From Antedon mediterranea (taxonomy: Eukaryota > Echinodermata > Crinoidea > Comatulida > Antedonidae), in the NCBI RefSeq assembly GCF_964355755.1, contig NC_092676.1, positions 10,150,288-10,214,287 of the forward strand: a stretch of DNA of 64,000 bases. Reading direction: 5' to 3'. Shown here one piece after another: positions 6,833 through 50,875 of this stretch (the stretch's first letter is position 1; every line of letters starts with the position of its first letter). Under the pieces are notes generated by a model that worked only from the letters and a program-made list of their open reading frames with translations, had not been told where the DNA came from and ran no database searches. Both the position numbers and the translations under genes were made by a program.

Positions 6833-6980
6833 TTACGTTGCGTTTACGTCCTGCCTGATCCATCACGTCGTCATTTGTAAATTACTGACGGTTTTGTGCT
6901 TACGTCTAAGTGGGGAACAGGCTGACAATCATAAGAATCTCACGTGTTGTTGGGAGTGAAAAAGATCAAGAACTGTACTT

Positions 6981-7330
6981 GTGTGATGGAGTGTAATGCG
7001 TTTCTCATATCAAGAACGTGGCTTGTGTGATGGAGTGTAATGCGTTTCTCATATCAAGAACGTGGCTTGTGTGATGGAGTGTAATGCGTTTCTCATATCA
7101 AGAACGTGGCTTGTGTGATGGAGTGTAATGCGTTTCTCATATCAAGAACGTGGCTTGTGTGATGGAGTGTAATGCGTTTCTCATATCAAGAACGTGGCTT
7201 GTGTGATGGAGTGTAATGCGTTTCTCATATCAAGAACGTGGCTTGTGTGATGGAGTGTAATGCATTTCTCATATCAAGAACGTGGCTTGTTCGATAGAAT
7301 GCAATGACATTCTCAGATCATGAAGTATGT
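6981..7330. repeat. 44-bp minisatellite, seven units
   Basis: Units begin GTGTGATGGAGTGTAATGCG at 6981, 7025, 7069, 7113, 7157, 7201 and 7245, exactly 44 bp apart and almost identical. The seventh has one change (TGCATTTC). A degenerate eighth unit runs 7289-7330. The array has no open frame and sits between LMO2 and the 3' end of the IFTAP gene. Confidence 0.95.
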
Positions 7331-13985: not shown

Positions 13986-14016
13986 GTATGATGAGCTGGT
14001 ATCCACTTGTTATAAT

Positions 14017-16002
14017 GGATGCTAGTCAAGTCGCCCCATCGCAAAGTCGCCCCATACAAAGTCGCCCCTTACACAGTCGCCCCATCGCAAAGTCGCCCCA
14101 AAACAAAGTCGCCCCGACACAGTCGCCCCATCGCAAAGTCGCCCCATCGCAAAGTCGCCCCATCGCAAAGTCGCCCCATCACAAAGTCGCCCCATCGCAA
14201 AGTCGCCCCAAAACGTTAAAAAATAGTTTACAAGTGCGTAAAATGTCGCAATGATACACAAAATAACACGGAACGTGTAGGCATAAAAAGGGGAAGCCCC
14301 GCCATGTAGTCTCAGGTCACACGATCGGCACGCACCACCATCAGAGAGGAATCCCCCGACTAATCACTCCGCGATCGCACTAACGTGCTAGCTTACCAGA
14401 GGGAAACCCCCGTAATTACTCCGCCGTTGTCGCACTACAACGCACCATCTGAAGATGGGGAAACCCCGCCGGAGTTTTACGATGATATCAGTCGCGTTCG
14501 AAATCGGTCGCGTTTAAATTTGATAAAATGATGTTATATGATCTAGATTATTTTTACTTTGGTCGATGAATATGTATTATTATTATTAGGCCTATATTAA
14601 TAATTTGTAAACATAGTTTAAGATTATAATATTATCCAGCATAATGTCATTTAACAGTACATAATTATTTAAATGTGAAATATTTTATAGGAACGTAGGC
14701 TACGTCTGTGTCTTTTATTTTATATGCAACAAATTACGTAAAACAATTTATTTATAAACATTCAGTTTACTATTATCATTATGTTATATACATAGTATTA
14801 CGTAATGAACATTGATTGTAAGCCTGGAAAGGCAATCCCATCATTATATCCATTATAAAATTGCATCATATCACCACTATATGTCGTAAATGATGACGTT
14901 ACGTGTGTGTATTCGTCGTACGTCCGTGTACGTATTATTCCGTGCCTCTTCACGGTCTTGTTTAATTTAAAATTAAATAAATACCCGATATGAGGATATT
15001 TATTAGGCATGATAATTAGAATGTTCTAGGCCTAACCAAAAGGGTTGAAAAGAATTTCTTCAGTAAAATGATCATTGTGCTGTTGAATAAAAGGCGACTC
15101 GTCATCTGAAACATTCTCTGAAACCAATCGGAACTGCGCCGTCTTTCTGCTGACCGTCGGGGATTCCCCTTTTTAAAAAACACGCACACGATACTGTACG
15201 ATGGTTTTTCCATGGTCAAAATGTAGCGTTTTAATTTTACTAAAATACCTGCATGTAAAACAATCATATCGGCGATGAAATCCTTTTTTTTTAATTTCTT
15301 TATTTTGAAAAGTCATTATAAAATTAAGACACATAACTTGTCAATAAATGTAAAATGATCAATAAGTAGCCTATAACACTCATTGTCTTACAACACTGTT
15401 ATTGTTTTAACTACTGTAAATCTAGGCCTATAGGAAGGCCTAGGCTACTACACATTTATACATTTATTATATTATCCTAAAAAATTAGCTGGTATCCACG
15501 CGTAGGTTGAAGAAAGATTCGTAATTGTGGCTCTGGTAACTAATTTTAAAATCATATTAAATTAACATTTTCGAAACTATAAAAATCAGGGATAATCTTT
15601 TTAGAACTTTCAAACAAGGGACTATTTTTTTAATGATTTTTAATAAAAAGCACATCACTCCATTAAAACCTGTAAAATAAAAATTAAAACACAAATTATG
15701 TATATAGGATAAACATTATACTGTATACGACATTTAGCGCGACCAAAGTAACAACGCAATCGATATCAAACGCAACCAATATGATTAAAACCGTGGGCGA
15801 CTTTGCGATGGGGCGACTTTGCGTTGGGGCGACTTTGCGATGGGGCGAATTTGCGATGGGGCGACTTTGCAATGGGGCGACTTTGCGATGGGGCGACTGT
15901 GCCGGGGCGACTTTGTTTTGGGGCGACTTTGCGATGGGGCGACTTTGTATTGGGCGACTTTGTATGGGGCGACTTTGCGATGGGGCGACTTGACTGGATC
16001 CC
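14017..16002 (+). mobile_element. Foldback (TU-like) element, AGTCGCCCC family, copy 1
   Basis: The left end is GGATGCTAGTCAAGTCGCCC and the right end is GGGCGACTTGACTGGATCCC. Flanking 8-bp direct repeats GTTATAAT (14009-14016 and 16003-16010) mark the insertion. Both ends are tandem arrays of a 14-16 bp unit, AGTCGCCCCATCGCAA: 14028-14218 forward and about 15793-15995 inverted. The ends can therefore fold back. The 1.57-kb interior has no transposase-like frame, so the element is non-autonomous. The layout (arrayed inverted termini, unique interior, 8-bp duplication) is that described for sea urchin TU elements. An open frame of 83 codons at 15267-15016 (-) is shared with copy 2. Confidence 0.85.
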
Positions 16003-16014
16003 GTTATAATAATG

Positions 16015-16200
16015 TTACTTGTTTGTAGGTTGAAGAAAGATTCGTAGGCCTAGCCTAGGCATAGGGCTAGCTAGCTAGGTTAGGCCTATAGTTAGGGCCT
16101 AAATTAAAATTTTCGAAACTATAAATCATGGAGGATTTTCCTCCATGTATAAATCAGGGATAATCTTTTTAGAACTTTCAAACAACTTGACTGGATCCCA
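16015..16200. mobile_element. Internally deleted remnant of the same foldback family
   Basis: The remnant contains GTAGGTTGAAGAAAGATTCG (as at about 15504), then TTTTCGAAACTATAAATC and AGAACTTTCAAACAA (as at 15570-15617), and ends CTTGACTGGATCCC, the family right end without its array. It lies between the two complete copies. A local hairpin ATGGAGGATTTTCCTCCAT sits at about 16128-16146. Confidence 0.55.
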
Positions 16201-16209
16201 CCTTTCTAG

Positions 16210-18273
16210 GGGATCCAGTCAAGTCGCCCCATCGCAAAGTCGCCCCATACAAAGTCGCCCAATACAAAGTCGCCCCAAAACAAAGTCGCCCCGGCACAGT
16301 CGCCCCATCTCAAAGTCGCCCCATTACAAAGTCGCCCCATCGCAAATTCGCCCCATTGCAAAGTCGCCTCAACGCAAAGTCGCCCAATCGCAAAGTCGCC
16401 CACGGTTTTAATCATATCGGTTGCGTTTGATATCGATTGCGTTTGTTACTTTGGTCGCGCTAAATGTCGTATACATTAATGTTTATCCTATTATATACAT
16501 AATATGTGTTTTAATTTGTATTTTACAGGTTTTAATGGAGTGATGTGCTTTTTAAAAATCATTAAAAAAATAGTCCCTTGTTTGAAAGTTTTAAAAAGAT
16601 TATCCCTGATTTATAGTTTCGAAAATGTTAATTTAATATGATTTTAAAATTAGTTACCAGAGCCACAATTACAATTTCTTCAGCCTACGCGATACCAGCT
16701 CATTTTTTAGGATAATAGCCTATAATAAATGTATAAATGTGTAGTAGGCCTTCGTATAGATTTACAGTAGTTAAAACAATAACAGTGTTGTAAGACGAGT
16801 GTTATAGGCTACTTATTGATCATTTTGCATTTATTGACAAGTTATGTGTCTTAATTTTATAATGACTTTTCAAAATGAAGAAAAAAAGGGGATTTCATCG
16901 CCGATATGATTGTTTTACATGCAAGTATTAGTAAAATTAAAACGCGACATTTTGACCATGGAAAAACCATCGTACAGTATCGTGTGCGTGTTTTTTAAAA
17001 AGGGGAATCCCCGACGGTCAGCAGAAAGACGTAGCAGCTGTGAGGAAACAGATACCAGAAGGCGCAGCTCCGATTGGATTCAGAGAATGTTTCAGATGGC
17101 GAGTCGCCTTTTATTCAACAGCACAATGATCATTTTACTGAAGAAATTTTTTTCAATCCTTTTGGTTATAGAACATTCTAATTATAATGCCTAATAAATA
17201 TCCTCATATCAGGTGTTTATTTAATTTTAAATTAAACAAGACAGTGAAGAGGCACGGAATAATACGTACACGGACGTACGACAAATACACACACGCACGT
17301 TATCATTTACGACATATAGTGGTGATATGATGCAATTTTATAATGGGATATAATGATGGGATTGCCTTTCCAGGAGTCTTACAATCAATGTTCACTGTAA
17401 TACTATGTATATAATAGTAAACTGAATGTTTATAAATAAATTGTTTTACGTAATTTGTTGCATATAAAATAAAAGACACAGACGTAGCCTACGTTTCCTA
17501 TAAAATATTTCACATTTAAATAATTATGTACTGTTAAATGACATTATGCTGGATAATACTATATCTTAAACTATGTTTACAAATTGTCATTTTTTAAGCC
17601 ACATATCTTTCTCATCATAGGCCTACTGACCTGTAAAATAAAAACAAAAATCAGTTATTAATATAGGCCTAATGATAATAATAAATATTCATCGACCAAA
17701 GTAAAAATAATCTAGATCGTATAACATCATTTTATCGCGACCGATTTCGAACGCGACTGATGATATCATCGTAAAACTCTGGCGGGGTTTCCCCATCTTC
17801 AGATGGTGCGTTGTAGAGTGCGACAACGGCAACGGCGGAGTAATTGCGGGGGTTTCCCTCTGGTAAGCTAGCACGTTAGAGTGTGCGACCGCGGAGTGCG
17901 ACCGAGTGATTAGTCGGGGGCTTCCTCTCTGATATGGGGGTGCGTGCCGATCGTGTGACCTGAGACTACATGGCGGGGCTTCCCCTTTTATGCCTACACG
18001 TTCTGTGTTATTTTGTGTATCATTGCAACATTTTACGCACTTGTAAACTATTTTTTAACGTTTTGGGGCGACTTTGCGATAGGGCGACTTTGTGATGGGG
18101 CGACTTTGTGATGGAGCGACTTTGCATTGGGGCGACTTTGCGATGGGGCGACTTTGCGATAGGGCGACTGTGTCGGGGCGACTTTGTTTTGGGGCGACTT
18201 TGCGATGGGGCGACTGTGTAAGGGGCGACTTTGTATGGGGCGACTTTGCGATGGGGCGACTTGACTAGCATCC
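16210..18273 (-). mobile_element. Foldback (TU-like) element, AGTCGCCCC family, copy 2 (inverted)
   Basis: This is a reverse-complement copy of 14017-16002. The left end is GGGATCCAGTCAAGTCGCCC and the right end is GGGCGACTTGACTAGCATCC. The 8-bp direct repeats CTTTCTAG lie at 16202-16209 and 18274-18281. Terminal arrays are 16218-16402 and about 18061-18265. Both copies keep the same asymmetry: one end starts GGGATCCAG, the other GGATGCTAG. It is slightly longer than copy 1, partly through an insertion in the shared open frame at 16910-17194 (+). Its target duplication differs from that of copy 1, so the two insertions are independent events rather than one duplicated segment. Confidence 0.85.
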
Positions 18274-18480
18274 CTTTCTAGTAGGCGGCCTTGGCCCTAG
18301 GCCTAGGTAGTAGTGTAGGCTAGGCCCTACTAGTACTACTACTATCTAGCTAGGCCTAGCGGCCCTAGGTAGGCCTACCCTAGCTAGGCCTACCTAGGGC
18401 CCGGTAGGCCTCTAGGGCCTACCTAGGCCAATTTCCAACAAGAAACGACTAGCCCTAGGCCTAGATAGCTAACTAAATTT
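18274..18480. repeat. AGGCCTA-rich palindromic simple sequence
   Basis: Some 200 bp are built almost entirely of overlapping TAGGCCTA, CCTAGG and CTAGCTAG palindromes. A similar block lies at 61590-61705, and single AGGCCTA heptamers are scattered through the whole window. There is no coding potential. Confidence 0.7.
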
Positions 18481-19009
18481 AAAGTACGTAACAAAGTACT
18501 ACCTTTTAAATAAATACTGGCTGTGTATGAGGCTTATTATTATTAGCGTCTCTGCTAACTAGCGGTAAATAAAAAACCAAGTTCTTTGGTAAAACTTGCG
18601 CCGTGTTTGTTTTCATAGTTTCGCCCTTTGACCTCTATCTAGTCTCAGCTCTCCTAGCTCCCTCATCATTATAAGAGTATGTTCACTTCGCTAAAAAAAT
18701 TAATTAGAGAACCGCTCGAGATAGGGCGCCTCTCACGACGAGTAGAGATAGACGAATCTGAAACATGAGGAGCACAATGTTTCGGCAATAAATTGTAAAA
18801 ATAAGCCACAAAAAACAAAACAAAAACTTCTTTTTTGTCTTTATTATACAAAGTTAAAAATTAATATGATGTTTTCATACTGTTTTTGGATCTTTTTAAT
18901 TGTTAATACATTTATTTGGAGTGAGTTTTGTCATGACATGACTGTAAACACTGAGCTAGGATCAGTAGGAGGCTTACGCGCGCCTAGACGCATTTCATGA
19001 ATGGATGCT

Positions 19010-19055
19010 GGTTATCTCGTACCCAAACCAACCCGTACCCAAACCAACCCGTCCC
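19010..19055 (+). repeat. Short array of CGTACCCAAACCAACC units
   Basis: Two to three 16-bp units, CGTACCCAAACCAACC, occur in tandem after GGTTATCT. The inverted phrase GGTTGGTTTGGGTACGGG occurs at about 61519-61537. The unit size fits an isolated terminus of another foldback family, but the partner end was not located here. Confidence 0.45.
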
Positions 19056-19489
19056 CATAAAAACTCTTACCTATCTTGGTAAACCCCAGTCAAGTCTGAA
19101 GTCATAATGCAAATTTTACAGTATACAGTATTGTTGTTGGCAAACAATATATGATTTATGAATAAATGATAGCAATTCTTCTGCAATTTCTATAAAACTC
19201 TAGGGGTAGAATCTGTAAATTCATTTCTATAGAAATTATCTGTTTCTATAATAGATTAACATAGAATTCTAAAACTTCTATTGATAGAACATTTTTTGTA
19301 AGGGTAGTATAATAAAAGGGGGTAAAGTAGGCCTCCCCACGGATATTTTTTCCTTGATATAACCTTACCAATAATGAACTCATAGGCTTTACATAATCAT
19401 GGCATATAAAATTACGATGAATGCAGTTTTACCTTAGTTAAGCGTTACATTCTTTCACATTATTGATCGTTTCCATCCCCGAAACCTCG

Positions 19490-19622
19490 ACTAAGAAATA
19501 CCGGAATGGTGTCCGGCGGGAGATAGTTTATTACCATTAGTCAGGGTCTAATATAAAGCACCTAGAGGGGTCAGTGATCCATTAGGCGCTATATAAATAT
19601 TGTTTATTATTATTATTATCAT
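19490..19622 (+). mobile_element. Retroposon 3' end with GCGCTATATAAAT ... (TTA)n tail
   Basis: The sequence ends GGCGCTATATAAATATTGTT followed by TATTATTATTATTATCATTG. That is a common 3' tail of LINE-dependent SINEs in marine invertebrates (family knowledge). The 5' boundary is unclear; the segment from about 19490 (GGTGTCCGGCGGG) probably belongs to it. Confidence 0.5.
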
Positions 19623-20212
19623 TGAAATTTGCAGAAAGAAGCAATTAAACACTGTTATTTCAAAGTTCGGAACGTCCGTAATTACGGACGGACAGATAGA
19701 AGATAAATAAGGTACTACGGAGATACCGTAGTAGGCCTACCGGTACTTAAAGGAATGAGGAATTCCCAGCAAAAGGCAATAATTATGGACAAATCAGCGA
19801 CCAATGGTTTTCCATGAACAGGTGCAGTGGCCTTTCGTACCTTCTCGTGACGCACGCAAGCAATCCAAACAGTCAATTCATTCTGAGCATGTTCAGCAGA
19901 AATATCCACACAAAGGCCTACAAAAAAATACGCTGACCAGTAAATGGTAAATTGTGCGCGGTATTATTGAATGCTGGAATTTTACGCTGCAGTCTGTCAA
20001 TATACATATTGGCTCTTCCAACCCCAACGGTAAACAGGATACGGTATCAATCGTTTACATAAAAAAACATAATTGTTTAGTTCAAACACCTTTGAAAACT
20101 TGATAAAAACCAAAAAAAAAAACTGTATAACCATGGCCCGAGTAAAGATTATTATTCTTTACTCCATGGTATATAACATTATTATTAACAATCTTTGGTT
20201 TTGTCTAAATGT

Positions 20213-20332
20213 GGGACGATTCGGCCCGCAAAGTAGGACGTTACGGCCCACTTTTGGGTGGGCCGAAACGTCCGACTAAACGTGGGCTGAATAGTCTCGG
20301 GCCGAATCGTCTCAGGGCCAAATCGTCCTGCA
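20213..20332. repeat. Compact inverted array of GGGCCGAAWCGTC units
   Basis: The left half reads GGACGATTCGGCCC and GGACGTTACGGCCC; the right half reads GGGCCGAAACGTCC, GGGCCGAATCGTC and GGGCCAAATCGTCC, the same unit inverted. The 120-bp block can fold on itself. Related GGACGATT phrases recur at about 33690, 33955 and 34990. It is probably a collapsed foldback element. Confidence 0.55.
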
Positions 20333-20449
20333 ACCCTAGACTTCTATAATGTTAATGGTTAGGCCTATTATTATGATGAAATGGGATCTAAATTTTAATT
20401 TAGGCCTAGTGGCAGAAGAAACTTTTATTATGAATACCCCTGTACACTC

Positions 20450-20600
20450 ATGTTTGTAGTGAATTCAGCCTAAATCACACGACACAGCATTAAGACACAC
20501 ACAAATATAATATATATATTATCTTTTTTGAGAAATCATACGTAGGAGAATTTTAAAGTAGGCGGAGGTATTTGCACTCTCGGAGTGACTTTCTAGTTAT
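20450..20600 (+). repeat. Right-end copy of the CTCCGCC/GGCGGAG element
   Basis: This block matches 3900-4031 in order and orientation: TGTAGTGAATTCAGCCTAAA, GCATTAAGACACACAC, GTAGGAGAATTTTAAAGTAG, GGCGGAGGTATTTGCACTC. No left end was found upstream, so the copy appears truncated. Confidence 0.6.
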
Positions 20601-21086
20601 TTAATGAGTTCTATACCGTTCGGATATTCAATAAACTAAAAACCTCGTTTTAGCCTATTATTGTTTTCCTTTTATTGAAAATAATGTGCGGCTAGTTTTA
20701 TTTCCATATCTTCGCATGTTTACAACGCACAATCATTTTGTTCCCCGCCGTTCCTTAACTTAGACGGCACATTTAAATTATGTGACGATCTCTAACACAA
20801 AATAAAAACTCAAAGTTTAGTGTATGAAGTATTATTTTATGTATATTAATTAAGGGATATGTATTTTGAATAATAAAATCGCGTTAGATCATAATTAACT
20901 AACTTATTACAATATTTTCATGAATAAAAGTCATGTTATCAAATATATACGGCGATCATTAACTGGAGAATGTACGGCCGGGGGTTTAAGGCGTTGCCGG
21001 AAACGTTTTTATAAAAATTAATATATTAATGTTATTATCTTTGGTTTATGTAATTAATTATTTTTAAAATAATGTTTATTATTACA

Positions 21087-21586
21087 GAAGCCCGTTCGCC
21101 ACATAGGCTTAATTCTGGCGGCCCCGCCACTTAAAATTATCTAGCGGACGGCAAGGCAATCATAATTATGCTACGGAAGTCAGCCACTACTGCTACAAGT
21201 CATAATAAATATTATACATTACCAATACTTTTAAAGCGATTTTGTCCTCAAATCTCGCGTCAACGTTGTCATCGTCATGTGAACGCAAACAACAACAGTA
21301 GCCTATACAACTGACATTAAATAACTTTCAGTACATCTTATAATCTCACTCCTACCAGATATATAATAGTAAGGAAAGAAGAAAAAACAAATTATTTTCC
21401 TATATTATACACATTTACATTACATTTAGTGCATCACTACATTTTATTTGCCTTTTCTTTATTTATTAAAAACTCACTATTGCAAACATTGTTGACGCAA
21501 TACAGACAAATTAAGTGGCGGCCACCAGATAATTAAGTGGCGGCCGCCAGATAACAAATTTAACTATAGTGACCCGAACGGGCTTC
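21087..21586. mobile_element. Small foldback element with GAAGCCCGTTCG ends
   Basis: The left end GAAGCCCGTTCG and right end CGAACGGGCTTC are inverted. Next to the right end, a roughly 22-bp unit (AATTAAGTGGCGGCC(A/G)CCAG) is repeated twice; the left end has a diverged equivalent (TCTGGCGGCCCCGCCACTTA). The 500-bp element has no open frame. No target duplication is visible, and the left array is partly degraded. Confidence 0.6.
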
Positions 21587-23221
21587 GGTAGATATAAGAA
21601 TTTTTTTTAAATAATTTTTTATAATGTTTTTTTGCAAATGGAGGCCTCCTGTCAAATTTGGCCATGGTAGAATTTAAAGAAAATTTCATTCATCTCACAT
21701 TTTTGTTACTAGCAGTGAACTTTGAGCATGAGTGTAGGCCTACTTAACAAAAGATTAGGAGTGAGTAACGTGAAAATATTAGGATAACAAAGCAAGAAGA
21801 GAGTAATTAAACGAATTAGAAGATCATAAAACGGTATAAGCCTATATGGATTTTTAAACTACTGGATGATACCAATTAGACAACCAAAGGAAAATTTATA
21901 AAAGTAAAGACCATAGGAATACAAAAAGGATGAAGGGCCGAATAAAAAATATTACGTAAAAGGAAAACATACAAAAACATTAACAAACCATCCTACAAAC
22001 AGAAAATATGGAAACAAATCGTAGAAAACGTGTCTGAACAGGAAGGATGACCGAAAACGTTTCAGGGGCCGGGAGGGGAGTATTTTTTAGTGTTATTGTC
22101 ACATGAAACTTCCCTATATTATGTCCTTGGATATTGTTATTGCATGCTAAGGCCTATAGGTCTACGGGTTCTCTTCAATGCGCCTCGTGAAAATACAACC
22201 TTTCAGCTGTCACCGAATGAAATTTGTACTCATCATAAACATATCAATTATTTTGTATAAGTTATTTTAAACTCTCACACTTCCTTGTTGTTGCTGAACA
22301 AACTGTTATACCGCCGCCATCAAGTAGATATGTGCGCGTATAAGATGAGCATGGCCACCACCATTATTTAGGGCAATAGCTAGCGAGCTTAGAGTCGGCG
22401 CGGTATAGAGTACGTAAGTTTTTGTTGTGAAATATTGATTGACAGAAAATTGTTCTGAAAGAAGGGTTGAAAAACAACTTTGAAAGTAGTAATATGACAC
22501 TCTTTTTCAACATGTAGTGAGATGTTTACTATGCATTACTAGAATGAGGGAGCAAAAGGAAGAGAACAAATGTACGTAGACATGTGCCTGATCGTTTTAT
22601 ATGGTCATTTTTAAATCTGATTGTTAAAACAGTTGTAAAACTTTAATCTATACTTAATAACAGTGTGTAGGCTAGGCCCTCTCTGACTAGAACAGCTGTA
22701 TGTGTTTTGTGTGCTTTCTCCTGTCAAAAGGAAGAAGGATGTCACCGTGTCAGCCAACAGGGCAAGCGAGCTAGTGACAGTCTGACTAGGACTAGCCTAG
22801 ACCAGGGAACATTTTCGCCAGTGTAGCGTAGCAAAAAGCTATACAAAACAACCTTATTGCTACACATTTTGAAAATTGTGTAGCAAAAAATACAATACAA
22901 AACTATGTTTCTCGACTTAAAAATCAGTTTGATTAGCAATATTGCTAAACAAAATTGTTAAATGAAAATTTTCCCTGTAGACGTACAGTCAGTAGACCTA
23001 GGCTACCCTCTTGTCTAGTAGTAGGAATGTAGTAGTAGTAACTTAAACACTAACAGTAGTAGGGGTGTGTAGAAAGCGACGACCTCGAATTGAACGACCT
23101 CGAATTGAACGACCCATAACACGAAACCGACGACCCCTATAGCCTAGCCTAGGCCTAAGTGTGGTATAACATCCCGAAGCCGAACATAGCCAAAGATCTT
23201 TAAACTATACCTTATTATATA

Positions 23222-24012
23222 CGCCGTGGTTAGGATTCCGGCACCGGAACCCAACTGCCCAGCGTTAGGGGAATCTGACACGCTATTGCGCATGCCCAGA
23301 GCGAGGTAATCGGCGACTCTCTATACTTATTACTATACCAATTCTTTGACTATACAGCGATGGATCATTTCATAGCTGCGCCACACGGCGAACTAGCCTA
23401 GATGCCTACTAATGCGGGATCCACTAATCTAGGCTAGGGCTACCAGTTAGACGTGACCAGTGGGCCTATTTATTTTGTAATTAAAAAATGGTTGAATCAA
23501 CCATTTTTTAGATGCTTCATTCATATATAAACTTCATATCATTATGAATTATATAATTACATGACTAGTTTTATGATTTTTCATAACGCATTTAATATAC
23601 TGTACATAACATGCAATCACAAGTTGATTTGTTGACGGCAGCCACCGCGTGGATGTGAAAAAACTGTTCGGGAATTCGGGGTCGCAACGTTAAAAACAGC
23701 ATTACGATTCTTAGATAGATACTGATTCTTATTAATATCATTATAATTATTTTAACGCGTGGCGTAGTCGTATTTTAATTATTAATTCATGTATGGCATA
23801 GGCCAAGTTTCATCCATCTCTCGCTCGCGCAACGACTCGACTATCTAGGCTACAGTAAATCCCTATAACACTCCGACTCTCGGTGGTGTGGTGTGTGGCA
23901 CTATTAGTGCAAGCTATAATTCACTTCCCAGAGCTCTGGGCATGCGCAATATCGTGTCGGATTCCCTAACGGTGGGCAGTTGAGTTCCGGTGCCGGAATC
24001 CTAACCACGGCG
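23222..24012. mobile_element. 791-bp DNA element with ~78-bp terminal inverted repeats
   Basis: The ends are CGCCGTGGTTAGGATTCCGG and its complement at 23993-24012. The inverted match continues, with a few mismatches, through GCGCATGCCCAGAG. Flanking 9-bp direct repeats TATTATATA (23213-23221, 24013-24021) indicate insertion into the left arm of the surrounding foldback. The uninterrupted right arm at about 28243-28256 shows the approximate empty site. The interior has no open frame. A 9-bp duplication with long terminal repeats would fit a Mutator-like non-autonomous element, but that is inference. Confidence 0.8.
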
Positions 24013-24922
24013 TATTATATAATACTCGCAAGCAAGCAATTGATTGAAAAAATACAGAAATATCGCCATTTGTGTCGACACGAACAAACGAAAAGATATG
24101 GAACGCCAAGAGTGCATCATTAAAACTGCATTCGACATATTAAAAATAAATTAAAAAGAAATAAATATTATACAATACATGGTTAAACCATGGACGTATA
24201 ATTACATCTCGTCTTCTTATAACGAACACTATAGGCCTACCAAGCAGCGTAACATGTGCATGGGGGGATATGACCGGTTGGGCCGCCGACAAGTTGAGCC
24301 GCCGGTATTTTCTATGAAACGGCCAGTGCGTCTTTTACGACATTTCGCGTAGTGATAGAGTGGTGTCCTAGTAGGCCCTACATAAGTTCATGGTCTTTAG
24401 GTTTATTGTGTCATGAAAATAAATAATAATTACATACTACAATTTTATTGGTTTGAAACAGCAAAGGAAAGTAGTCATATTTAATAATTTAATTGTTTTA
24501 ATCTTTCAAGGTAAAAATGCAGTGCACTCCATAATATTTTTCTCGCGTGTATGCCTACCACGTAAAATCACGTTGTCTCTCAGGACTAATAGAGTATTGA
24601 TATTCTTCGAATGAGGTTAAATAATTATTATTTTTTATTTACTATCTTTTAATATCATATTTTATTGAATTTTACAATGTTAATACACAAAATATTTTAC
24701 TAAAAACCGGTGATTTTATGCAATTATTTTACTTCAACTGCCGCCTGAGGGGGCAACATGTTTACGTCATTTTTGGCTAAAAACGATCATTTTCGGTCAT
24801 GTTTTAGGCCTTATATTTTGGAATCTACAAGTCAGATATTCATAATTATTTCTCTTTAATTATAATATTTAATAATATATACTAAAAACCATGATATATA
24901 AACATCGTTATATCTAATAATT

Positions 24923-27845
24923 GATATAATAGAACCACAAGGCTCGAGGTTAGCCCATCTTTATGGTCTTCCCAAGACGCACAAAGAAAATCTATCTATT
25001 AGGCCAATACTCTCAGCCACTGGCACTTACAATTTTAAATTAGCACAATGGTTAGATGAGAAGCTAAAACCATTAGCCAGCAACGAATACTCTATACCAG
25101 ACATTTTTGATTTTGCTAAAGAGTTACGTTCTACTGAAATTGGTTCAGATGATGTTCTGGTCTCTTACGACGTAGTTTCTCTATTCACCAATGTTCCACT
25201 TGATGAGACCATTAACATTCTTGTTCATAAGGCCTTTAAAGATGACTGGTTTAACATTGAACACGGTTTATCTATCGATAAACAAGGTCTTAAGGACCTA
25301 CTTACAATTGCGACCAAAAATCAACTTTTCCAATATGATGGTGATCTATACGAGCAGGTTGATGGCGTAGCCATGGGTTCACCGCTTGGACCACTGATGG
25401 CAAATGTTTTCATGTGTTACATTGAAGATACCTTACAAGCAACAGGGAAAATGCCGCAGTTCTATCGTCGCTACGTTGATGACACAATCGTATTCATGCC
25501 TTGAAGCCAGGTTTCAGCACAGAATTTTTTGAACACTTTGAACAATTCACACGATGCCGTTGATTTTACAATGGAAATTGCTAGAGATAACTCAATACAT
25601 TTTTTAGGTATGACTATCTCAAAAAACGATGTATCTCTTGAAACCAAAGTATATAAGAAATCCACTAATAAAGGCTTATTATTACATTATGATAGCCATG
25701 TGGATATCAAACATAAACGTAATCTAATTCACACAATGCTTAATAGGGCCTACAAATTGTCATCTACGCATGACATTTTCCTATCAGAGGTTGATAATGT
25801 AACTAAGATTTTTCAAAAGTTGAATTATCCTTTAGATCTTTTTTTAATAAAGTTTTAAATAAAATTAGTCTAATTGTTAAGGCTTTCAACCAATCCATTA
25901 ATACTTGTGTGACTCCTAGTAATACTAATGAAGATATGCTAACTGATGAATCTCCCCAGCCTATTAGGATTGTACTACCGTACAAGGATCAAACTTGTTG
26001 ATTGAAATATATATTTTGTGTTTAGTAACACGGTTACTAAACAACTTAGTGCGAAGATTGAAAATGATATTTTACCAGTATTTACTAGTCGTAAGATACT
26101 GTAGGTGACACCTTAAAACCTAAAGAAATGAAACCCAGAATCATTAATTCACAATGCGTTGTGTACAAATTTCAATGTGGTTAGTGTGATACAAACTATG
26201 TCGGTTACACTTGCCGACACCTTTACAAACGCATTAATGAACATAACAAAAGTATTATAGGCGATCACCTAAAACAATATGGCATAACTGGTGATATCTC
26301 AGAATACTTTAGAGTCTTATCCAGGGCTCGATTTATCTTTTTCATGTTGCTAGCCCACTGGGCTAGTTCACTGTAGATTTCACTAGCCCATACATTATTT
26401 TACTAGCCCACTCATATCGTACCGTGATAGCAGGGCCACCATATAAATGAATACAGGCATTTTGTACAATCTTAACGATCGGGAATTGCTACACATTTAC
26501 ATACATACTGTAATATTGCTTGAAAAATTACACAAAATTGTATTTCTTTATTGTTCACATAAAAATTAACTTTGCGTCGCATAGTCTATTTCATGCTCAT
26601 CACATTTACAGAATTGATTTATTGAGGTCTTTTTGTTGTTGGGCCTAGCCGAGAAAACTTTTTAGATTCTGTCTACCTTAGGCCTAGCCTAGCCCTAACT
26701 AACCTGGCCCATATTAGATAACTGTAGTAGGGTAGCTAGGATAGACCTACCTAGATTGCATTGGAGCACCTGGCCTACTGCTACCAAAATGGTAGTACCT
26801 AGCTGCTGAGCAGCAATCATGATGCCAAATTAAACAATACAAACTCTTGTGTCTTGAGACTGCATACCGAACCTATTGTCTTATTGAAGCTTACAGAGGC
26901 CTTTTATCACTAAATGATTTATTTTTGGTTTTATTTTAAACAAATTAAAAAATACCAAGCTTTTTGGCTTTTGATTCTATCTAGGCCTACGCATTATAAA
27001 ATATGGCCTCCATGGCCTACCAACAGCTGGTATAGAGCCAGCCACCCGGCCCTACAAAATATCCCTAGCTCTGATATGTGACAACCAGGCCTGATGACAA
27101 GACCAGACAAGTTATTTTTAACATTGACAAAATTCTACTACATTTGGCCAATCACAGTTCTTTATTTTTGGTCATATTTTTGTGAAATGTTGGACCTGAT
27201 AATGAAGCTCCGCCTACTTCACAATAACCTGAGTAACAAAAACATAAATGGCCAATCATAATTCGGGAAATTTGCTTGATTATGAGAGGCTCCGCCTACT
27301 TCATCTCTTGTTATGGCCACAGCAGCGCGCGAGTGGTTTTTTTTGCTGATGTTGCCAAGGCATGTCTTTTATGCTGGAATTATTTTTATGAGGTCATTTC
27401 GTCCCAATTTCGAGTTCCCACAACCTACTAGCCATCCGGGCTTAAAGGAAGATACTTTAGGTAGCCCGGAGCTGTTTTTACTAGCCATTGTACGCCGGGC
27501 TAGCACTAAATCGAGCCCTGCTTATCTAAATGCAACAATAAGTTTGATTGCTTAATTAAGGAGATGTTGTGGATCAAAGAGATAAAACCTACACTCAATA
27601 AACAATCGGATTCCATCAAAGCTAAATTGTTTATCTAACTCAGTAGGAGGAGCTAATTACTTAATTAGCCCCAAATTAGCATTTCCTGTCACCAACTTTG
27701 GTGCTTAGTGCACATAATTATTATTGTTTTGTATTCACTTGATCTTGAAAATGGTTCTATGATGGTACCGAAACGTCGATCTCTCCTTTTGTCATTAAAT
27801 TTTATATTGAAATTATATAGTAAACGTCTTTTAATTCGTAAATAG
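24923..27845 (+). pseudogene. Penelope-like retroelement, 5'-truncated and broken (RT + GIY-YIG)
   Basis: The reverse transcriptase frame is open from 24923 to an in-frame TGA at 25502 and resumes in the same frame to 25858. Motifs in order are LYGLPKTHK, LVSYDVVSLFTNVP, GVAMGSPLGPLMAN and the catalytic RRYVDDT. A frameshift at a T-run near 25845 moves the frame to one that ends at 26000. At 26152-26320 is the start of a GIY-YIG endonuclease (VVYKFQCG, a stop, then NYVGYTCRHLYKRINEH). Its end lies at 27521-27637 (SKCNNKFDCLIKEML ... KAKLFI, stop). RT followed by GIY-YIG is diagnostic of Penelope-like elements. The 3' part with CCGAAACGTCGATCTC also fits. A DNA element (26322-27520) splits the endonuclease; skipping it leaves the frame intact. 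The copy is inactive. Confidence 0.85.
26322..27520. mobile_element. DNA transposon with CAGGGCTCGATTTA ends, copy 1
   Basis: The ends CAGGGCTCGATTTA and TAAATCGAGCCCTG are perfect inverted repeats. A 6-bp direct repeat CTTATC flanks it (26316-26321, 27521-27526). It interrupts the GIY-YIG domain of the Penelope-like element, and the reading frame continues directly across the empty site, which fixes the ends exactly. Subterminal zones repeat CTAGCCCA/TGGGCTAG-type motifs in both orientations. The 1.2-kb interior has no long frame, so it is non-autonomous. A second family member is at 28676-33457. Confidence 0.85.
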
Positions 27846-29270
27846 AACTTCTATTAAATAGAAACGAGCACTGGCGAAAGTAAGCATTTGGCGTTTCATA
27901 GAAAATAACGTTTTTCTGGCGGCGCCTCAACTTGTCGGCGGCTCAACTTGGCCTAATCCTGCATGGGGAGGGCCATAAGAAAGCTTTACATTTCACACAT
28001 GCATTGTATACGGTCAAACCATGGAGGTATAAAAATATTTTTACCAAACCATGGAGCTGGTCAAACCATGAAAAAGGGGCCTGGTTTGCCATGTTTATGA
28101 TATTTCGTGTGCTAATCGAGTCGAATGCAGTTTTAATGATGCACTCTTGGCGTTCCATATCTGTTCGTTTGTTCGTGTCGACACATTCAGTATCAAATGG
28201 CGATATTTCTGTATTTTTTCAATCAATTGCTTGCTTGCGAGTATTATATAAGGTATGGTTTAAAGATCTTTGGTTATGTTCGGCTTTGGGATGTTATACC
28301 ATACTTAGGCCTAGGCTAGGCTATTATAGGGGTCGTCGGTTTCGTGTTATGGGTCGTCCAATTCTAGGTCGTCCAATTCGAGGTCGCCCAATTCGAGGTC
28401 GCCCGGGTCGTTGGGGTCGTCCAATTCGAGATCGTCGCTTTCTACACACCCACAGTAGTAGCCTTGTTAAATTGTGAACACAACACATCACGGCACACAG
28501 TGTACCATTATGGATGAGTGTTGACAATACTGTAGGATACTGTAGGCCTATACATGAATCATCATTTTTAAGTAACAATTGTTGTTGTATTTCATTCAAA
28601 TCATATCGTGTCAAATTATTTGAGTTTCCAAATTGTTTACAATTTGTCTGTGGTTATAGTTGTCATCCATATGCACAGGGCTCGATTTTTTAAATTTTAC
28701 TAGCTAGACCACTGGGCTTGTTCAATGTGAGTTTCACTAGCCCACTGGATGTTTCACTAGTCCGCTTATTGACTAAATCTTACTGGGTATATACCGCACA
28801 CCTGAATCAAAACTAACTAAACTACTGTAAGTTCTAGTTAGTTTATAAATACAGTAGTGCCACAGACAAAAAGTTTATCATGTAAAGCAATGAGTGAATG
28901 CACTAAATTGCTCTCCTTGTACTGTATTTCAAATAAAATATGACCGCCCAACCCCACTATCCTCACACACTAAATCCTAGCACCTACTCATGGACTTCGA
29001 ACTATACTGCGGTAATTTTTTTATAGAAATCCGGCCATGGTCTAACTTGACTGGGTGCCATTGGCCAACCAGGCATACTCTGCTGGCTAGCTAGGCCTAT
29101 AATAAATAATATAGGGCTAGGCCTAGAACTAGGCCTAGAAATTAAAAACAAAAAAGTACCTGTATTTCACAAAGTAATACAAAAAAAATATTAATGACAA
29201 GTTACTAAGTATATCATTTGAATATTACATCTTAAAAATGTAATTAAGGAAAGGGTATTTGGCTGTGTTT

Positions 29271-30674
29271 ATGTTATGCGCGATTTGAACGATTTGCGCA
29301 ATTTGAAATTGCGCAAAAAAAATCCTTGCGCAATTTGAATTGAAACATGTGTTTCAAATTGCGCAAGCAACGTATTAAATTGCGCAAGTAATCTGCAAAT
29401 TGCGCAAGGTTTTTCGACAGATTGTGAAATCATGCACACCTATATTTTTATAGTAATTTCTAAGAATGATTCAAAATTAAAGATAAATATCGCATTTCCT
29501 TATTTTAGTAGTGCAAATATTGTTATAAGTTAGCATACCGTCGAAGAACCGACGAAGGAAAACGAAGCGGTGGTGTTCCACCGGGCGGGCGCGGCGCGGG
29601 CGGCCGGCTATACTACTCTAGCCTAGCTAGGGTCTGGACTACTGATCTGACTAGGTTACATGGCCTAGCTTAAACTAATATTAAAAACTTAAAGACCCCT
29701 TCCCTGCAATTTTGGACGTTTTTTGGAAAATAATACATATATATCACTTTAAAAACATTAAACCATGTCATTCCTTGTCTTAAATGTACGTTTTATGGTA
29801 AATTATGATAAAAAGTGAGAAACAATGCACTACCTAAGTAGCTCGCGGCGATCGACCTCTCGTGGACGGTCTTAGGCCTAGCCTAGCTAGGCTTAGTTTT
29901 GTAGGCCTAGCTGGTAAACATCGATAACGTACGAACATCGTACGCTAGCTATATACCTAGCCTGACGTTGTATAGTTGCTGCATTAATTGTCTTTCTATT
30001 TTTGCCAGACTCCGTTGATACAAATTGGGGAAAACCCTGTATTTTCGCTGAAAAGTTAGGAGTCTTCCATTTGTTTTGGCTTCACGATCGATCGAAAAGT
30101 GGGCGAATTACAGGTGAAAAACAAAAATATCAATCCGCGCGCAATGCATTTTGGGATTTATAGCGGGCCGCTATAATTATTAGAATCGATTTATTTTTCA
30201 CATTTTTAACCGTTTAAAGACGAAAAAAGTTATTGCAATAGGACCATATAGTATTATTTTTACATTAAATATAGTTTGTGATCTTAAATTAGATCTAAAA
30301 AACGTAGGGAATGGGGCTTTAAAAAGTGAGTATTAAACATTATCTTCATTGAAATGGTCTTATTTATTTATAATAAAATACTAAATTTTAAACTCCTTGA
30401 AAATTTACAGTTCGTTTTCAAATTGCGCAAAGGTGTCATATTGCGCAAGAACTATCTTGCGCAATTTACAAATTGTGCAGCGCAATTTAAAATTGCGCAA
30501 AGATTTTCTTGCGCAATTTGAAATTGCGCAAGTTGATTGCGCAATTTGAAATTGCGCAAAAAAATCCTTGCGCAATTTTAAATTGTGCAAGAATTCTTTG
30601 TGCAATTTCAAATTGCGCAAGGATTTTTTTGCGCAATTTCAAATTGCGCAAATCGTTCAAATCGCGCATAACAT
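29271..30674. mobile_element. Foldback element with GCGCAATTTGAAATT terminal arrays
   Basis: The ends ATGTTATGCGCGATTTGAAC and its exact complement (ending CGCGCATAACAT) are inverted. Inside are tandem arrays of a 15-bp, nearly self-complementary unit GCGCAATTTGAAATT: about 29297-29410 on the left and 30418-30656 on the right. Short open frames there, repeating RNLKLRK or AQFEIAQ-like words, are array translations, not genes. No clear target duplication is found. A 626-bp TTAA element (29693-30318) is inserted within it. Confidence 0.75.
29693..30318 (+). mobile_element. 626-bp TTAA element, copy A
   Basis: It is flanked by TTAA at 29689-29692 and 30319-30322. The ends AGACCCCTTCCCTGCAATTT and ACGTAGGGAATGGGGCT are imperfect inverted repeats. 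An inverted copy of exactly the same length lies at 32144-32769, and I see only scattered differences between them. There is no open frame. TTAA duplication fits a piggyBac- or Kolobok-mobilised non-autonomous element. Confidence 0.85.
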
Positions 30675-47378: not shown

Positions 47379-49545
47379 TATTTTTGTAAATAGTAGAGTA
47401 GGTTAAAAGAAAACTGGAAAGCAAGCAAAGATTTCATAGGGCTTGTATTTGAAAATCTATAAGAACAAATTTCTTTTTTGTAGTTTCAGCTTAATTGTTA
47501 CTACATGTAAACCGGTAGGTAGCATTGGTTATGAACATAATTTGTTATTTGGAGGTGTGACTGTCAAATGTTCACACTGCTTTTATGATCCAACCGAAGC
47601 TGATCATTAGCGACCTTCAGAACAATACAGTTTGACAAGACGATTTATAAATATTTATTATATGTTGATAAATAATGTTTCATCTGGACCCAAGGAGGTC
47701 AACTTGAGGCTGTTTTTGCGTTGCAGCTAACAATTGCTCTAAAAACGATTTTAAAAACATTTTATTTTGTGGTTTTTTAAAAGAATGGCTTTAAAGCTGT
47801 ATTCTCCTGCTCAATAGAAAAATGCTCATATTAATAGCATTTTGTTTATATTTCATTTTTCCCCCAAAACTTGTATTTTATTTATTATAGAAAATGGGAC
47901 CATACAAAGTCTTTGAGATGGTTTTAGAAACCTGAATTGATTATGGTCTCGATAGTCAAAACCATTATTGAAAATGGAGCAATTTTTAAATGAAATTTAA
48001 GTTTTGTCTCAATTTTCACTTCAACCTAACAAACTGTTTATGGGTTATTAGAATGCCAAAGAAATTGGTTTTATTAAAAAAAAACCATATTTTTAAAATG
48101 TTGAATGTTCTTTATTGAAATATGTGGAACGCTACGAGAATAAAGAACAAAATCAATATAATAATTAAAATGTACAAAATAAGTGAACAATATCATGAGC
48201 TGTGGTAAAATAAACTGCCTAAAAATGGTGAAATTATTTGGATAATTCACATTTTACATGTTAGATGTGATTTAAAAATATATGTATGTTCTGTTGTCTG
48301 CATTCCTGTGTGTATTTTTCTGTATCACATGTACTTCCTCCCCACATCTCCACTTGCATTGACACATGCATTTCCACATCCTATGTGCATTCTCATGTCC
48401 CATACCTTGTGCATACCCACATCCCAATTGTGATACCATCGACATTCCAAAGTCCCATTCTTATTTACCCTAAGCAGTACAGACAACTATAGTTAAAATT
48501 GTTCTCATTTTTTTGTATACACTATTAGAATTAATACCACCGTATACATTTATGTTATATAAATTTTACCTAAATAATAGTTTTATAATGTCTTTTCTGC
48601 CACTACCTGGATTAAATAGCCCAAAGGCTGATATTTATTTATATATTTATTCAATTCTTTGCAGAATTATAACTTATTTATATTTCTATCTTTCGTCCAC
48701 TAAACTTAGTATTATATTATTTATACTGTGAAATGATAACATGACAAAAATAAGTGATCGTGAAAATAAAGATTCCTCTGTACAACTATTACAGTTCAAA
48801 GATGCTATCAATTGGACTTGACTATACCATGAAAGCCTCATTGGTCTGTGGCATATCAAGCAGAAAGGTTTGAGTCTATTTTCACGCTTGCTGATTTTCT
48901 AATGTTTATCATTACAAAACTATTCCGTCTATATTTATGTCCATCTTTGTGTGGCTAAGTAAAAACAATTATATAGTATTATGTATTATACTGTTTAGTT
49001 TTTTGTTTTATATTTATACTGTAGACAATAATTTGATATTTTTTTAAAGTAGTATAACATTAAGTTATAACAATTAGTTCAGTTACTTAAACTTTTATGT
49101 GTCAACATGTGTGTAGCGTGTCCAATATACTGTATACATTATGCAAATTAGTGCCGCATTATATAAAAATCAACTTTTTTGCCATATGGTGACCGATAAT
49201 ACTAAAGATAACTATTAACAAATGATTTGTTCTTTTAATGATTTAAAGGATAAAAATGTTAAAACAATGAATGTCTTTGAATAGAATATAGAATAGTTTG
49301 ACATTATCCCAGTTATTCTGGGGTGCAATTGTTTCTTGTATTTGACAATGGATTAAGTTGTAAGTCTATCATACAGCAAATAGATGTACGGTCACTCCTG
49401 ATATAAAACTCAATAAAAAAAATGAATTTATTTTATTGTAAACCTGGATTTTTTAATTTTTTTATAATTGAATAACAAAAAAAATGATCACATTAATGAT
49501 CTTTGCCAAATAGCAGGCAAATCAGTGGATTTGTGAGATCATGTC
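47379..49545. other. Probable 3' UTR and intergenic DNA
   Basis: No exon is recognised. AATAAA occurs at about 48138 and 48765 and may end the upstream gene's transcript. Short open frames at 48286-48492 and 48513-48731 are low-complexity and without splice context. Confidence 0.4.
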
Positions 49546-50875
49546 AGTGTTAACTTAGTCTCACTTGTGAGGTGTCAGGATTGTATCAGTGGATTTGTGA
49601 GATCATGTTAGTGTTAACATAGTCTCACTTGTGAGGTGTCAAGATTGTTTGTCAGTGTTAACATAGTCTCACTTGTGAGGTGTTAAAATAGTCTCACTTG
49701 TGAGGTGTCAAGATTGTTTGTCGGTGTTAACATAGTCTCACTTGTGAGGTGTCAAGATTGTTTGTCAGTGTTAACATAGTCTCACTTGTGAGGTGTTAAC
49801 ATAGTCTCACTTGTGAGGTGTCAATATTGTTTGTCAGTGTTAACATAGTCTCACTTGTGAGGTGTCAAGATTGTTTGTCGGTGTTAACATAGTCTCACTT
49901 GTGAGGTGTTAACATAGTCTCACTTGTGAGGTGTCAAGATTGTTTGTCAGTGTTAACATAGTCTCACTTGTGAGGTGTCAAGATTGTTTGTCAGTGTTAA
50001 CATAGTCTCACTTGTGAGGTGTCAAGATTGTTTGTCAGTGTTAACATAGTCTCACTTGTGAGGTGTTAACATAGTCTCACTTGTGAGGTGTCAAGATTGT
50101 TTGTCAGTGTTAACATAGTCTCACTTGTGAGGTGTTAACACAGCCTCACTTGTGAGGTGTCAAGATTGTTTGTCAGTGTTAACATAGTCTCACTTGTGAG
50201 GTGTCAAGATTGTTTGTCAGTGTTAACATAGTCTCACTTGTGAGGTGTTAACATAGTCCACTTGTGAGGTGTCAAGATTGTTTGTCAGTGTTAACATAGT
50301 CTCACTTGTGAGGTGTTAACATAGTCTCACTTGTGAGGTGTCAAGATTGTTTGTCAGTGTTAACATAGTCTCACTTGTGAGGTGTTAACATAGTCTCACT
50401 TGTGAGGTGTCAAGATTGTTTGTCAGTGTTAACATAGTCTCACTTGTGAGGTGTCAAGATTGTTTGTCAGTGTTAACATAGTCTCACTTGTGAGGTGTTA
50501 ACATAGTCTCACTTGTGAGGTGTCAAGATTGTTTGTCAGTGTTAACATAGTCTCACTTGTGAGGTGTAAAGATTGTTTGTCAGTGTTAACATAGTCTCAC
50601 TTGTGAGGTGTCAAGATTGTTTGTCAGTGTTAACATAGTCTCACTTGTGAGGTGTCAAGATTGTTTGTCAGTGTTAACATAGTCTCACTTGTGAGGTGTT
50701 AACATAGTCTCACTTGTGAGGTGTCAAGATTGTTTGTCAGTGTTAACATAGTCTCACTTGTGAGGTGTAAAGATTGTTTGTCAGTGTTAACATAGTCTCA
50801 CTTGTGAGGTGTTAACATAGTCTCACTTGTGAGGTGAATAACATAGTCTCACTTGTGAGGTGTCAAGATTGTTTC
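49546..50875. repeat. Satellite array of mixed 44-bp and 25-bp units
   Basis: Every unit contains GTGTTAACATAGTCTCACTT followed by GTGAG. The long 44-bp unit adds GTGTCAAGATTGTTTGTCA; the short 25-bp unit lacks it. Long and short units alternate irregularly through about 1.33 kb with very few substitutions. Each unit holds the palindromes GTTAAC and CTCAC-TT-GTGAG. A degraded leading part starts near 49523. There is no open frame. Confidence 0.95.

Follow-up and report, generated by a model that had tools for sequence, protein, structure and literature searches.

Foldback-type transposons with terminal arrays at one crinoid locus: likely Mutator-type derivatives and a likely Ginger2-like family

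Introduction

In the window (the 64,000-nucleotide stretch of Antedon mediterranea DNA analyzed here), four families have inverted ends made of short units: F1 (AGTCGCCCCATCGCAA; two copies), F2 (GGTCGTCCAATTCGA), F3 (CAAGTTGAGCCGCCGA), and F4 (GCGCAATTTGAAATT). A preliminary description took them for foldback-type transposons served by one common machinery, which raises the question of whether they are true transposons and, if so, which transposases move them. We consider it likely that F3, F1 by the same plan, and probably F2 are non-autonomous foldback-type MULE derivatives and that F4, likewise non-autonomous, is Ginger2-like; Mutator-type elements, as known in mosquitoes and worms, are the source of at least one family and probably of three. 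The families are new members of kinds already known, and the locus is rich without holding a new kind of system.

Results

Inverted short-unit ends, as first described, were seen for F1a, F1b, F2, F3 (nested in F2), and F4. The features are listed below; arrays with copy numbers are from TRF, and target duplications were read by eye.

14017 to 16002, plus strand: F1a, non-autonomous element, A end (GGATGCTAGTCAAGTCGCCCC) left and B end (GGGATCCAGTCAAGTCGCCCC) right; duplication GTTATAAT (8 bp) at 14009-14016 and 16003-16010
14028 to 14210, plus strand: left array of F1a, 11.7 copies of a 16-bp unit
15795 to 15991, minus strand: right array of F1a, 12.6 copies of a 16-bp unit
16186 to 16199, plus strand: array-less B end of the older F1 copy hosting F1a (sequence by eye)
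16210 to 18273, minus strand: F1b, second F1 copy, oriented oppositely to F1a, with the B end on the left and the A end on the right; duplication CTTTCTAG (8 bp) at 16202-16209 and 18274-18281
16221 to 16402, plus strand: F1b left array
18064 to 18262, minus strand: F1b right array
23063 to 28451, no strand: F2, long TIR GGGTGTGTAGAAAGCGACG..., containing F3 and N1; duplication ACAGTAGTAG (10 bp) at 23053-23062 and 28452-28461
23079 to 23114, no strand: left array of F2, 2.4 copies of a 15-bp unit
23222 to 24012, no strand: N1, array-less TIR element inside F2 (CGCCGTGGTTAGGATTCC); duplication TATTATATA (9 bp) at 23213-23221 and 24013-24021
24265 to 27959, no strand: F3, lying within F2, with GGGATATGACC... 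and GGATTAGGCC... as its ends; duplication TGCATGGG (8 bp) at 24257-24264 and 27960-27967
28352 to 28436, no strand: right array of F2, 5.5 copies of a 15-bp unit
29272 to 30673, no strand: F4, Ginger2-like and non-autonomous, ends TGTTATGCGCG..., palindromic-unit arrays; duplication TTTA (4 bp), site TG-TTTA-CA

Five reverse-complement pairs of TRF arrays (units of 12 to 24 bp, within 8 kb) were found in the window, four of them F1 array combinations and one F2, in a scan that missed F3 and F4; direct-order pairs numbered three (two F1 and one chance-like). No array pair, inverted or direct, occurred in 15 first-order Markov sequences, which held 1 to 10 TRF arrays each versus 41 in the window. 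Among the genomic ends listed, all four families paired head-to-head, each with one characteristic duplication length (typically 8 bp for F1, 10 bp for F2, 8 bp for F3, and 4 bp for F4). Among the first 100 ends listed per family, on which the pair statistics for F1, F2, and F4 rest, the duplication was exactly 8 bp in 21 of 28 F1 pairs, exactly 10 bp in 23 of 27 F2 pairs (exactly 9 bp in 1), and at least 4 bp in 33 of 38 F4 pairs, the longest match being 4 bp in 30; for F3, an 8-bp duplication flanked the window copy and 8 of the 12 copies fetched. Ends without a partner among these first 100 (44 for F1, 46 for F2, and 24 for F4) are explained in part by partners that carry mismatches or lie outside the first 100 and hence do not appear. 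The foldback-type nature proposed in the preliminary description was thereby borne out, as were paired ends with consistent duplications for the pairs from F1, F2, and F4; its range of 8 to 10 bp for the duplications held for F1, F2, and F3 and was wrong for F4, since the F4 duplication in the window is 4 bp.

That the arrays are ordinary minisatellites paired by chance has a next to negligible probability. An array of about 31 exact F1 units at C3:15674010-15674505 and the many 2- to 3-copy tandem arrays that TRF found in the window would suit such a reading, but it is contradicted for F1 to F4 by the pairing of the ends, the exact duplications, and, in F1, a spacer order that is the same at both ends. 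The four main inverted-array families are true transposons rather than minisatellites. Three weaker examples put forward earlier were not confirmed (20213-20332, 21087-21586, and 60893-61455), with end-to-end scores of 29, 57, and 34, respectively, and no duplication seen by eye within the window.

F1a sits within an older F1 copy, the right end of which (16186-16199) now has no array, and the DNA to the left of F1a matches the interior of F1b. Every F1 pair (28 of 28 listed) consisted of one GGGAT end and one GGATG end. The F1 unit comprises a core of about 13 bp (CAAAGTCGCCCCA, 1.4 to 2.0 bits per position) and a variable spacer of about 3 bp (0.9 to 1.2 bits), repeated with a period of 14 to 17 bp that is not rigid. 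The spacer order was nearly identical across nine arrays from five copies, both ends included, so the fast turnover of arrays once proposed was not seen, the expanded array on C3 being one found elsewhere.

No MULE transposase was found between F1 ends (100 of 238 ends listed, 22 transposase loci compared), nor did a DNA search with F1 flank yield an autonomous form among the 40 of 268 candidates scored. Two candidates were rejected. A 17-kb F1 copy (L001 and L002) proved to be an ordinary F1 with another transposon inserted in it, as shown by a second copy on C5; the inserted element has an 808-aa frame, an OTU-like frame, short GCGAGGCA arrays, and a 9-bp duplication (AACTAATTT, by eye). The 808-aa protein seemed to have MULE/NOF-like motifs, a reading to which Pfam gave no support. 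The MULE at C3:9339044 is 4 kb away on the outer side of an F1 end, not on the inner side.

F2 has a TIR alignment of about 147 columns, and its long TIR and 10-bp duplication fit a MULE, for which the range is 8 to 11 bp; the 8-bp duplications of F1 and F3 also fall within this range. No MULE transposase was found between F2 ends among the ends listed and the 22 transposase loci compared. F2 is probably a non-autonomous foldback-type MULE derivative, for which a MULE transposase would be the mover. At 36 of 100 listed F3 ends the flank was the same and equalled the F2 site; the F3-in-F2 composite has multiplied. As a separate observation, F2 ends resemble those of a nested C1 element at positions 11 to 16 (AAAG.G), a hint of likeness.

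The window copy of F3, which carries a reverse transcriptase fragment, exceeds the length of about 0.8 kb of copies elsewhere. A decayed 7.5-kb relative, L027 (C6:17191900-17199900), has MULE transposase exons flanked by F3 end regions, with a MULE domain of 39.1 bits (above cut-off) between them. On its B side it carries the exact 24-nt F3 B end together with 72 bp at 89% (E 6e-22); on its A side the F3 A-side region lies inverted, 7.4 kb off (55 bp, 84%, E 4e-11). Both end regions were present in L027 only among the 22 transposase loci compared, and finding the second raised our confidence in a MULE explanation. The outermost 40 bp or so of the A end are unrecognizable, the 8-bp duplication was sought in L027 and not found, and an exact-unit scan gave a single F3 unit, so L027 may instead be two unrelated F3 fragments flanking a MULE. 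A candidate for the expected transposase between array ends was recovered for F3, in this decayed copy, and for neither F1 nor F2 among the listed ends.

Elsewhere in the genome, inverted 15- to 17-bp arrays enclose transposase exons in three MULE families; clear inverted arrays of 9- to 24-bp units were found in 4 loci (these 3 families) of the 14 MULE/FLYWCH loci scanned, and in one array family the unit periods were mostly 15 and 17 bp. MU-A (L029, L030, and C10) measures 2.4 kb, with two copies 99.4% identical; it combines a FLYWCH match (52.7 bits) with inverted 16-bp arrays and ends that are asymmetric, and 2 of its 3 copies show an 8-bp duplication. The MULE domain of its own frame scored 17.3, below the cut-off of 27.6, and that of a C1 relative passed with 35.6; with the domain taken from this relative, MU-A shows the Phantom-type MULE features of a FLYWCH finger, a MULE domain, and a duplication of 8 to 10 bp. 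In MU-B (L035), which has a 9-bp duplication, FLYWCH (31.4 bits) and MULE (59.2 bits) matches are enclosed by one array of 32 copies and another of 18. MU-C (L039/L040) has PHD and MULE exons and inverted 16-bp arrays, and one of its end regions is close to the F3 TIR core (19 bases, 2 mismatches); MU-C is a family related to F3. Unit sequences of F1, F3, and the three MULE families had no significant likeness, the best 6-mer being equalled by 89 of 1,000 shuffles, and a common unit core (AAAGYCRCCCC or GCCRCC) was rejected as no better than shuffles.

Plain ends without arrays were found in Merlin (L028), P (L041/L042), and one MULE (L026). Of 92 transposase places, compared in a set that leaves out hAT, 3 are situated on the inward side of any of the 300 listed F1, F2, and F3 ends at a distance of no more than 12 kb: the L027 MULE and two P matches. 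One P match, at C1:2823415, is a complete element having its own ends and lies 8.0 kb from an F2 end; the other, at C7:13956360, is separated from an F3 end by 9.5 kb. We regard it as unlikely that F1 belongs to the P superfamily, as does the foldback-like Galileo with its THAP binding sites in tandem repeats. Galileo provides the precedent, the genome holds 35 PF21787 (P) matches, and the P family examined also makes an 8-bp duplication (by eye), but that family has plain inverted ends of about 47 bp starting (C)TGAGACAAC and no arrays, and no P place lies inward within 12 kb of any listed F1 end. Similarly improbable is the derivation of F1 from Merlin or hAT, which the G-rich F1 ends and the 8-bp duplications of Merlin would allow: the one Merlin locus examined, L028, has a plain 210-bp TIR starting GGCGCTAATG, and 0 of 11 Merlin matches in the genome lie inward within 12 kb of listed ends. 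From the plan that it has in common with F3, we infer that F1 is a foldback-type MULE derivative moved by a MULE transposase.

The 15-bp unit first ascribed to F4 is actually half a palindrome, the array being palindromic with a period of about 31 bp (TRF periods of 31 and 59). F4 termini (TGTTATGCGC..., TGTTA; 343 + 342 genomic ends at no more than one mismatch) match TGTNR, and the target is RTATAY, with R before and Y after the duplication in 32 of 33 listed pairs. Its 4-bp duplication and RTATAY target indicate a superfamily different from that of the other families, which speaks against one common machinery. No transposase was found among the F4 ends examined; ends, duplication, and target place F4 as Ginger2-like, and a Ginger2 integrase would be its mover.

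It is very improbable that a single transposase serves every family, whatever the terminal array. The shared plan, the location of the families within 17 kb of each other, and the riding of F3 within F2 are as such a transposase would have it, but the duplications of 8, 10, 8, and 4 bp have sharp modes, the terminal sequences differ, and F4 has a target of its own. Several arrays could still be served by a single lineage in the MULE-type families F1 and F3.

Discussion

In the MULE families, the unit core of about 12 to 13 bp would be a putative site for the DNA-binding domain of the cognate transposase. Repeated every 16 bp or so at both ends, it could allow several transposase molecules to load ahead of cut-and-paste. 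Beyond the array, the short asymmetric terminal motif may mark the cleavage site, and staggered cuts in the target would leave the 8- to 10-bp duplications. We infer that the array units are binding sites of MULE transposases and that such enzymes are the movers of F1 and F2. The idea that a period of 15 to 16 bp reflects the spacing of such sites gains from its recurrence in three MULE families and in Muta1, and loses in that the period is not rigid. Tentatively, and with more doubt than confidence, we propose that FLYWCH- or PHD-type animal MULE transposases read a core of about 12 to 13 bp at intervals of about 16 bp; that the core drifts, co-evolving with the transposase, as period, unit order, and asymmetric terminal motif are kept; and that TU-type foldback elements of marine invertebrates are orphaned products. 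The analysis connects MULE transposases, inside one genome, with foldback elements that bear terminal 16-bp arrays, assigns a palindromic-array look-alike to another superfamily, and offers, in the core-plus-spacer model, a testable binding hypothesis for the role of foldback arrays.

A literature search returned no paper combining foldback elements, echinoderms, and DNA transposons. Sea urchin TU elements carry tandem repeats of 15 bp in the outer part of the TIR and make duplications of 8 bp; they are similar to the present elements in array plan and in the 8-bp duplications, a likeness of description only.

The Aedes aegypti MULE Muta1 is described as having 8- to 9-bp duplications and a TIR made of a 10-bp terminal motif and subterminal tandem repeats of 12 bp with 3- to 4-bp spacers, i.e., a 15- to 16-bp period (PMC5225508), a core with a short spacer like that of the F1 unit; it has been grouped with Phantom (PMC6446971). 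In the same species, subterminal repeats of 9 to 15 bp are given for 10 of 12 long-TIR MULE families, termed type 2 foldback (PMC5225508). F1 to F3 differ from these in that the copies themselves have no transposase, in their own unit sequences, and in the 10-bp duplication of F2. Tm1 of root-knot nematodes is reported to have in its TIR an array of a motif of about 14 bp, with asymmetric 7-bp ends that lie outside the inverted part; many of its copies are non-coding, and one member has a Phantom-type transposase (PMC3169594). As described, its asymmetric ends resemble GGGAT/GGATG of F1, and its duplication is 9 bp versus 8 bp in F1 and F3 and 10 bp in F2. Rehavkus MULEs have, as described, a PHD finger in common with the exons of the F3-related MU-C and a duplication of 9 bp versus 8 bp in F3 (PMC6446971). 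In Galileo, tandem repeats within the long TIRs hold additional transposase binding sites (PMC3688188); it belongs to the P superfamily, of which the family examined in this genome is array-less. Ginger2, as characterized in PMC2836005, agrees with F4 in TGTNR ends, 4-bp duplications, an RTATAY target, and a long TIR; F4 differs from it in its arrays of palindromic units.

Array-bearing elements in the window

The inverted arrays of short units described at the ends of four non-autonomous transposon families (F1 to F4) were borne out by TRF and inverted-repeat scans of the window, in which five inverted array pairs were found, versus none in 15 Markov sequences. The ends of F1 to F4 were read in the sequence. 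In genome coordinates the window is C7:10150288-10214287.

14017-16002, F1 copy F1a, duplication GTTATAAT
16210-18273, F1 copy F1b, duplication CTTTCTAG
23063-28451, F2, duplication ACAGTAGTAG
23222-24012, N1, a TIR element without arrays, also within F2, duplication TATTATATA
24265-27959, F3, within F2, duplication TGCATGGG
29272-30673, F4, duplication TTTA

This F3 copy includes an RVT_1 (reverse transcriptase) fragment (24902-25504; 34.8 bits), presumably Penelope-like by its appearance. TRF also detected long tandem arrays of 113-bp units (49521-50874) and 44-bp units (6965-7290; 98% matches).

Pairing of ends and target duplications in the genome

The genome (354 Mb, 18 contigs) was searched with end patterns and flanks, and pairs of F1, F2, and F4 were analyzed among 100 ends listed per family. 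Two joined F1 units (≤2 mismatches) occurred 686 + 708 times (reversed control, 0) and exact F1 ends 113 + 125 times. The 100 listed ends gave 28 F1 pairs, each of one GGGAT and one GGATG end, with an 8-bp duplication that was exact in 21 and had at most one mismatch in 24. F2 ends (≤1 mismatch) numbered 110 + 113, and duplications among the 27 pairs listed were exactly 10 bp in 23 and 9 bp in 1. For F4 (343 + 342 ends, ≤1 mismatch), a duplication of at least 4 bp was present in 33 of 38 pairs among the ends listed. With shuffled partners, the frequencies were 3.5% (8 bp, F1), 3.1% (10 bp, F2), and 6.5% (at least 4 bp, F4), chance redraw of the true partner alone being 3.6%, 3.7%, and 2.6%, respectively. 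Paired ends with consistent duplications, which the preliminary description had set as its test, were found for the pairs among the listed F1, F2, and F4 ends. F3 B ends (one of two end kinds, A and B; ≤2 mismatches) numbered 93 + 115, and an exact 8-bp duplication was present in 8 and absent in 4 of 12 F3 copies fetched outside F2. Duplications of 8 to 10 bp, as first proposed, hold for F1 (8 bp), F2 (10 bp), and F3 (8 bp) but not for F4 (4 bp).

Since the same F2 site was the flank in 36 of 100 F3 ends listed, the composite of F2 with F3 inside appears to have multiplied as a unit. Two adjoining F1 copies (C3:9595753-9599970) have GATGATAC as an identical 8-bp duplication on both outer sides and at their junction. 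F2 copies at C2:13812063 and C2:13845170 have one common duplication in opposite orientation, and those at C1:1970004 and C3:16363430 have the same short context with duplications offset by one base; these shared sites could stem from segmental duplication or from a target that is itself repeated.

Transposases associated with array-bearing ends

Among the F3 ends listed, one has a MULE match (C6:17195537) 3.5 kb inward. This locus, L027, contains an exact 24-nt F3 B end with 72 bp of F3 flank (89%) and, inverted and 7.4 kb away, an F3 A-side region (55 bp, 84%); among 22 transposase loci compared, L027 alone was positive, neither region being found in the others. Between the two regions lie a MULE domain (39.1 bits) and a frame interpreted as a PHD finger. 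Neither the outer A end nor the target duplication is preserved, and L027 is therefore probably a decayed relative rather than a functional autonomous element. Its exons are matched (70 to 78% in DNA) by those of the MULE family MU-C (L039, L040), which has an end region close to that of F3 and, at L039, inverted 16-bp arrays of GAAACGGCCGCCAACT. At another MULE locus, a 56-bp stretch (L038:6235-6290) weakly resembles the F3 B end, at 71% and E 0.006, and this locus is possibly a further F3 relative.

The anticipated transposase between family ends was thus probably recovered for F3, in decayed form, but in searches for MULE, FLYWCH, Merlin, and P transposases none was found for F1, F2, or F4 at the ends examined. 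Judged by its 10-bp duplication and long TIR, F2 is probably a MULE. A 17-kb F1 copy, considered as an autonomous candidate, was ruled out as a nested insertion.

Interior of L001 and L002 (C1:8205900-8222900) and L020:271-2694, a ~15-kb transposon lying within an F1 copy

This transposon has short GCGAGGCA-type terminal repeats and a 9-bp duplication. Its C5 copy (98% identity over a 507-aa query) has an 808-aa frame without a Pfam match over the cutoff; another frame is presumably OTU-like, from motif reading. A 26-copy 21-bp array (L021:8738-9277), for which the 10 kb fetched contained no inverted partner, lies downstream of a 694-aa protein related to the 808-aa one.

Two other MULE families bear arrays. 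MU-A (L029, L030, and a C10 copy; 2.4 kb; FLYWCH, 52.7 bits) has inverted arrays of AAAAAGCCACCCCTGT in 16-bp steps, asymmetric terminal nonamers, and duplications (TAAAAATA, GTAGTAGG) in 2 of 3 copies, none being seen in L030. In MU-B (L035), FLYWCH and MULE domains are flanked by 32-copy and 18-copy arrays of a 15- to 17-bp unit, with ends GGTTCTAGGACACC and CGTATCCGGATATT and a 9-bp duplication, ATTTAAAAG, backed by a related empty site at the same locus (by eye). Among 17 loci scanned for inverted arrays of 9- to 24-bp units, L029, L030, L035, L039, and L025 were positive, the last being A-rich and judged spurious; L029 and L039 each had one extra pair, chance-like and not located at the ends of the element. 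No such arrays were found at L024, L026, L027, L031, L032, L036, L037, L038, L028 (Merlin), L041 and L042 (P), or L040, the right end of which lies outside the fetched DNA. In the P elements at L041 and L042 (5.55 kb, 99.4% alike), the inverted ends are plain and ~47 bp long, and the duplications are 8 bp (GCGGACAC, GTATAAAC; by eye); the P matches at these loci and at C3:37950354 scored equally, and their frames are 794 aa long.

Array anatomy and comparison with known transposons

The 16-base F1 units, of which 69 were compared, have 13 nearly fixed positions (CAAAGTCGCCCCA) and 3 variable ones. Over 95 steps in 9 arrays of 5 copies (one 31-bp step left out), spacing was 16 bp in 69, 15 in 16, 14 in 9, and 17 in 1. 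The order 16, 15, 15, 16, 16, 14, then 16s was common to both ends and to the copies read, apart from the loss or gain of single units; in the F1 copy at L004, the B array is shorter. F1 arrays are therefore largely passed on as ordered maps. Fast array turnover, as initially suggested, is not supported by this order, largely kept across the 9 arrays, although one array elsewhere has grown to ~31 identical units. Unit sequences of different families showed no significant relation. As 16 bp is 1.5 helical turns, adjacent units would lie on opposite faces of the DNA. From their plan and the precedent of Muta1 (PMC5225508), Tm1 (PMC3169594), and Galileo (PMC3688188), the units are putative transposase binding sites. 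The F1 core-plus-spacer layout agrees with that of Muta1, with 12-bp repeats and 3- to 4-bp spacers (PMC5225508).

The F4 array consists of palindromic units with TRF periods of 31 and 59, and its likeness to F1 to F3 is therefore only superficial. F4 has TGTTATGCGC ends and a 4-bp duplication, preceded by a purine in 32 of 33 cases and followed by a pyrimidine in 33 of 33, with a TATA-like center. In these ends, duplication, and target, F4 resembles Ginger2, for which TGTNR ends, 4-bp duplications, and an RTATAY target have been published (PMC2836005).
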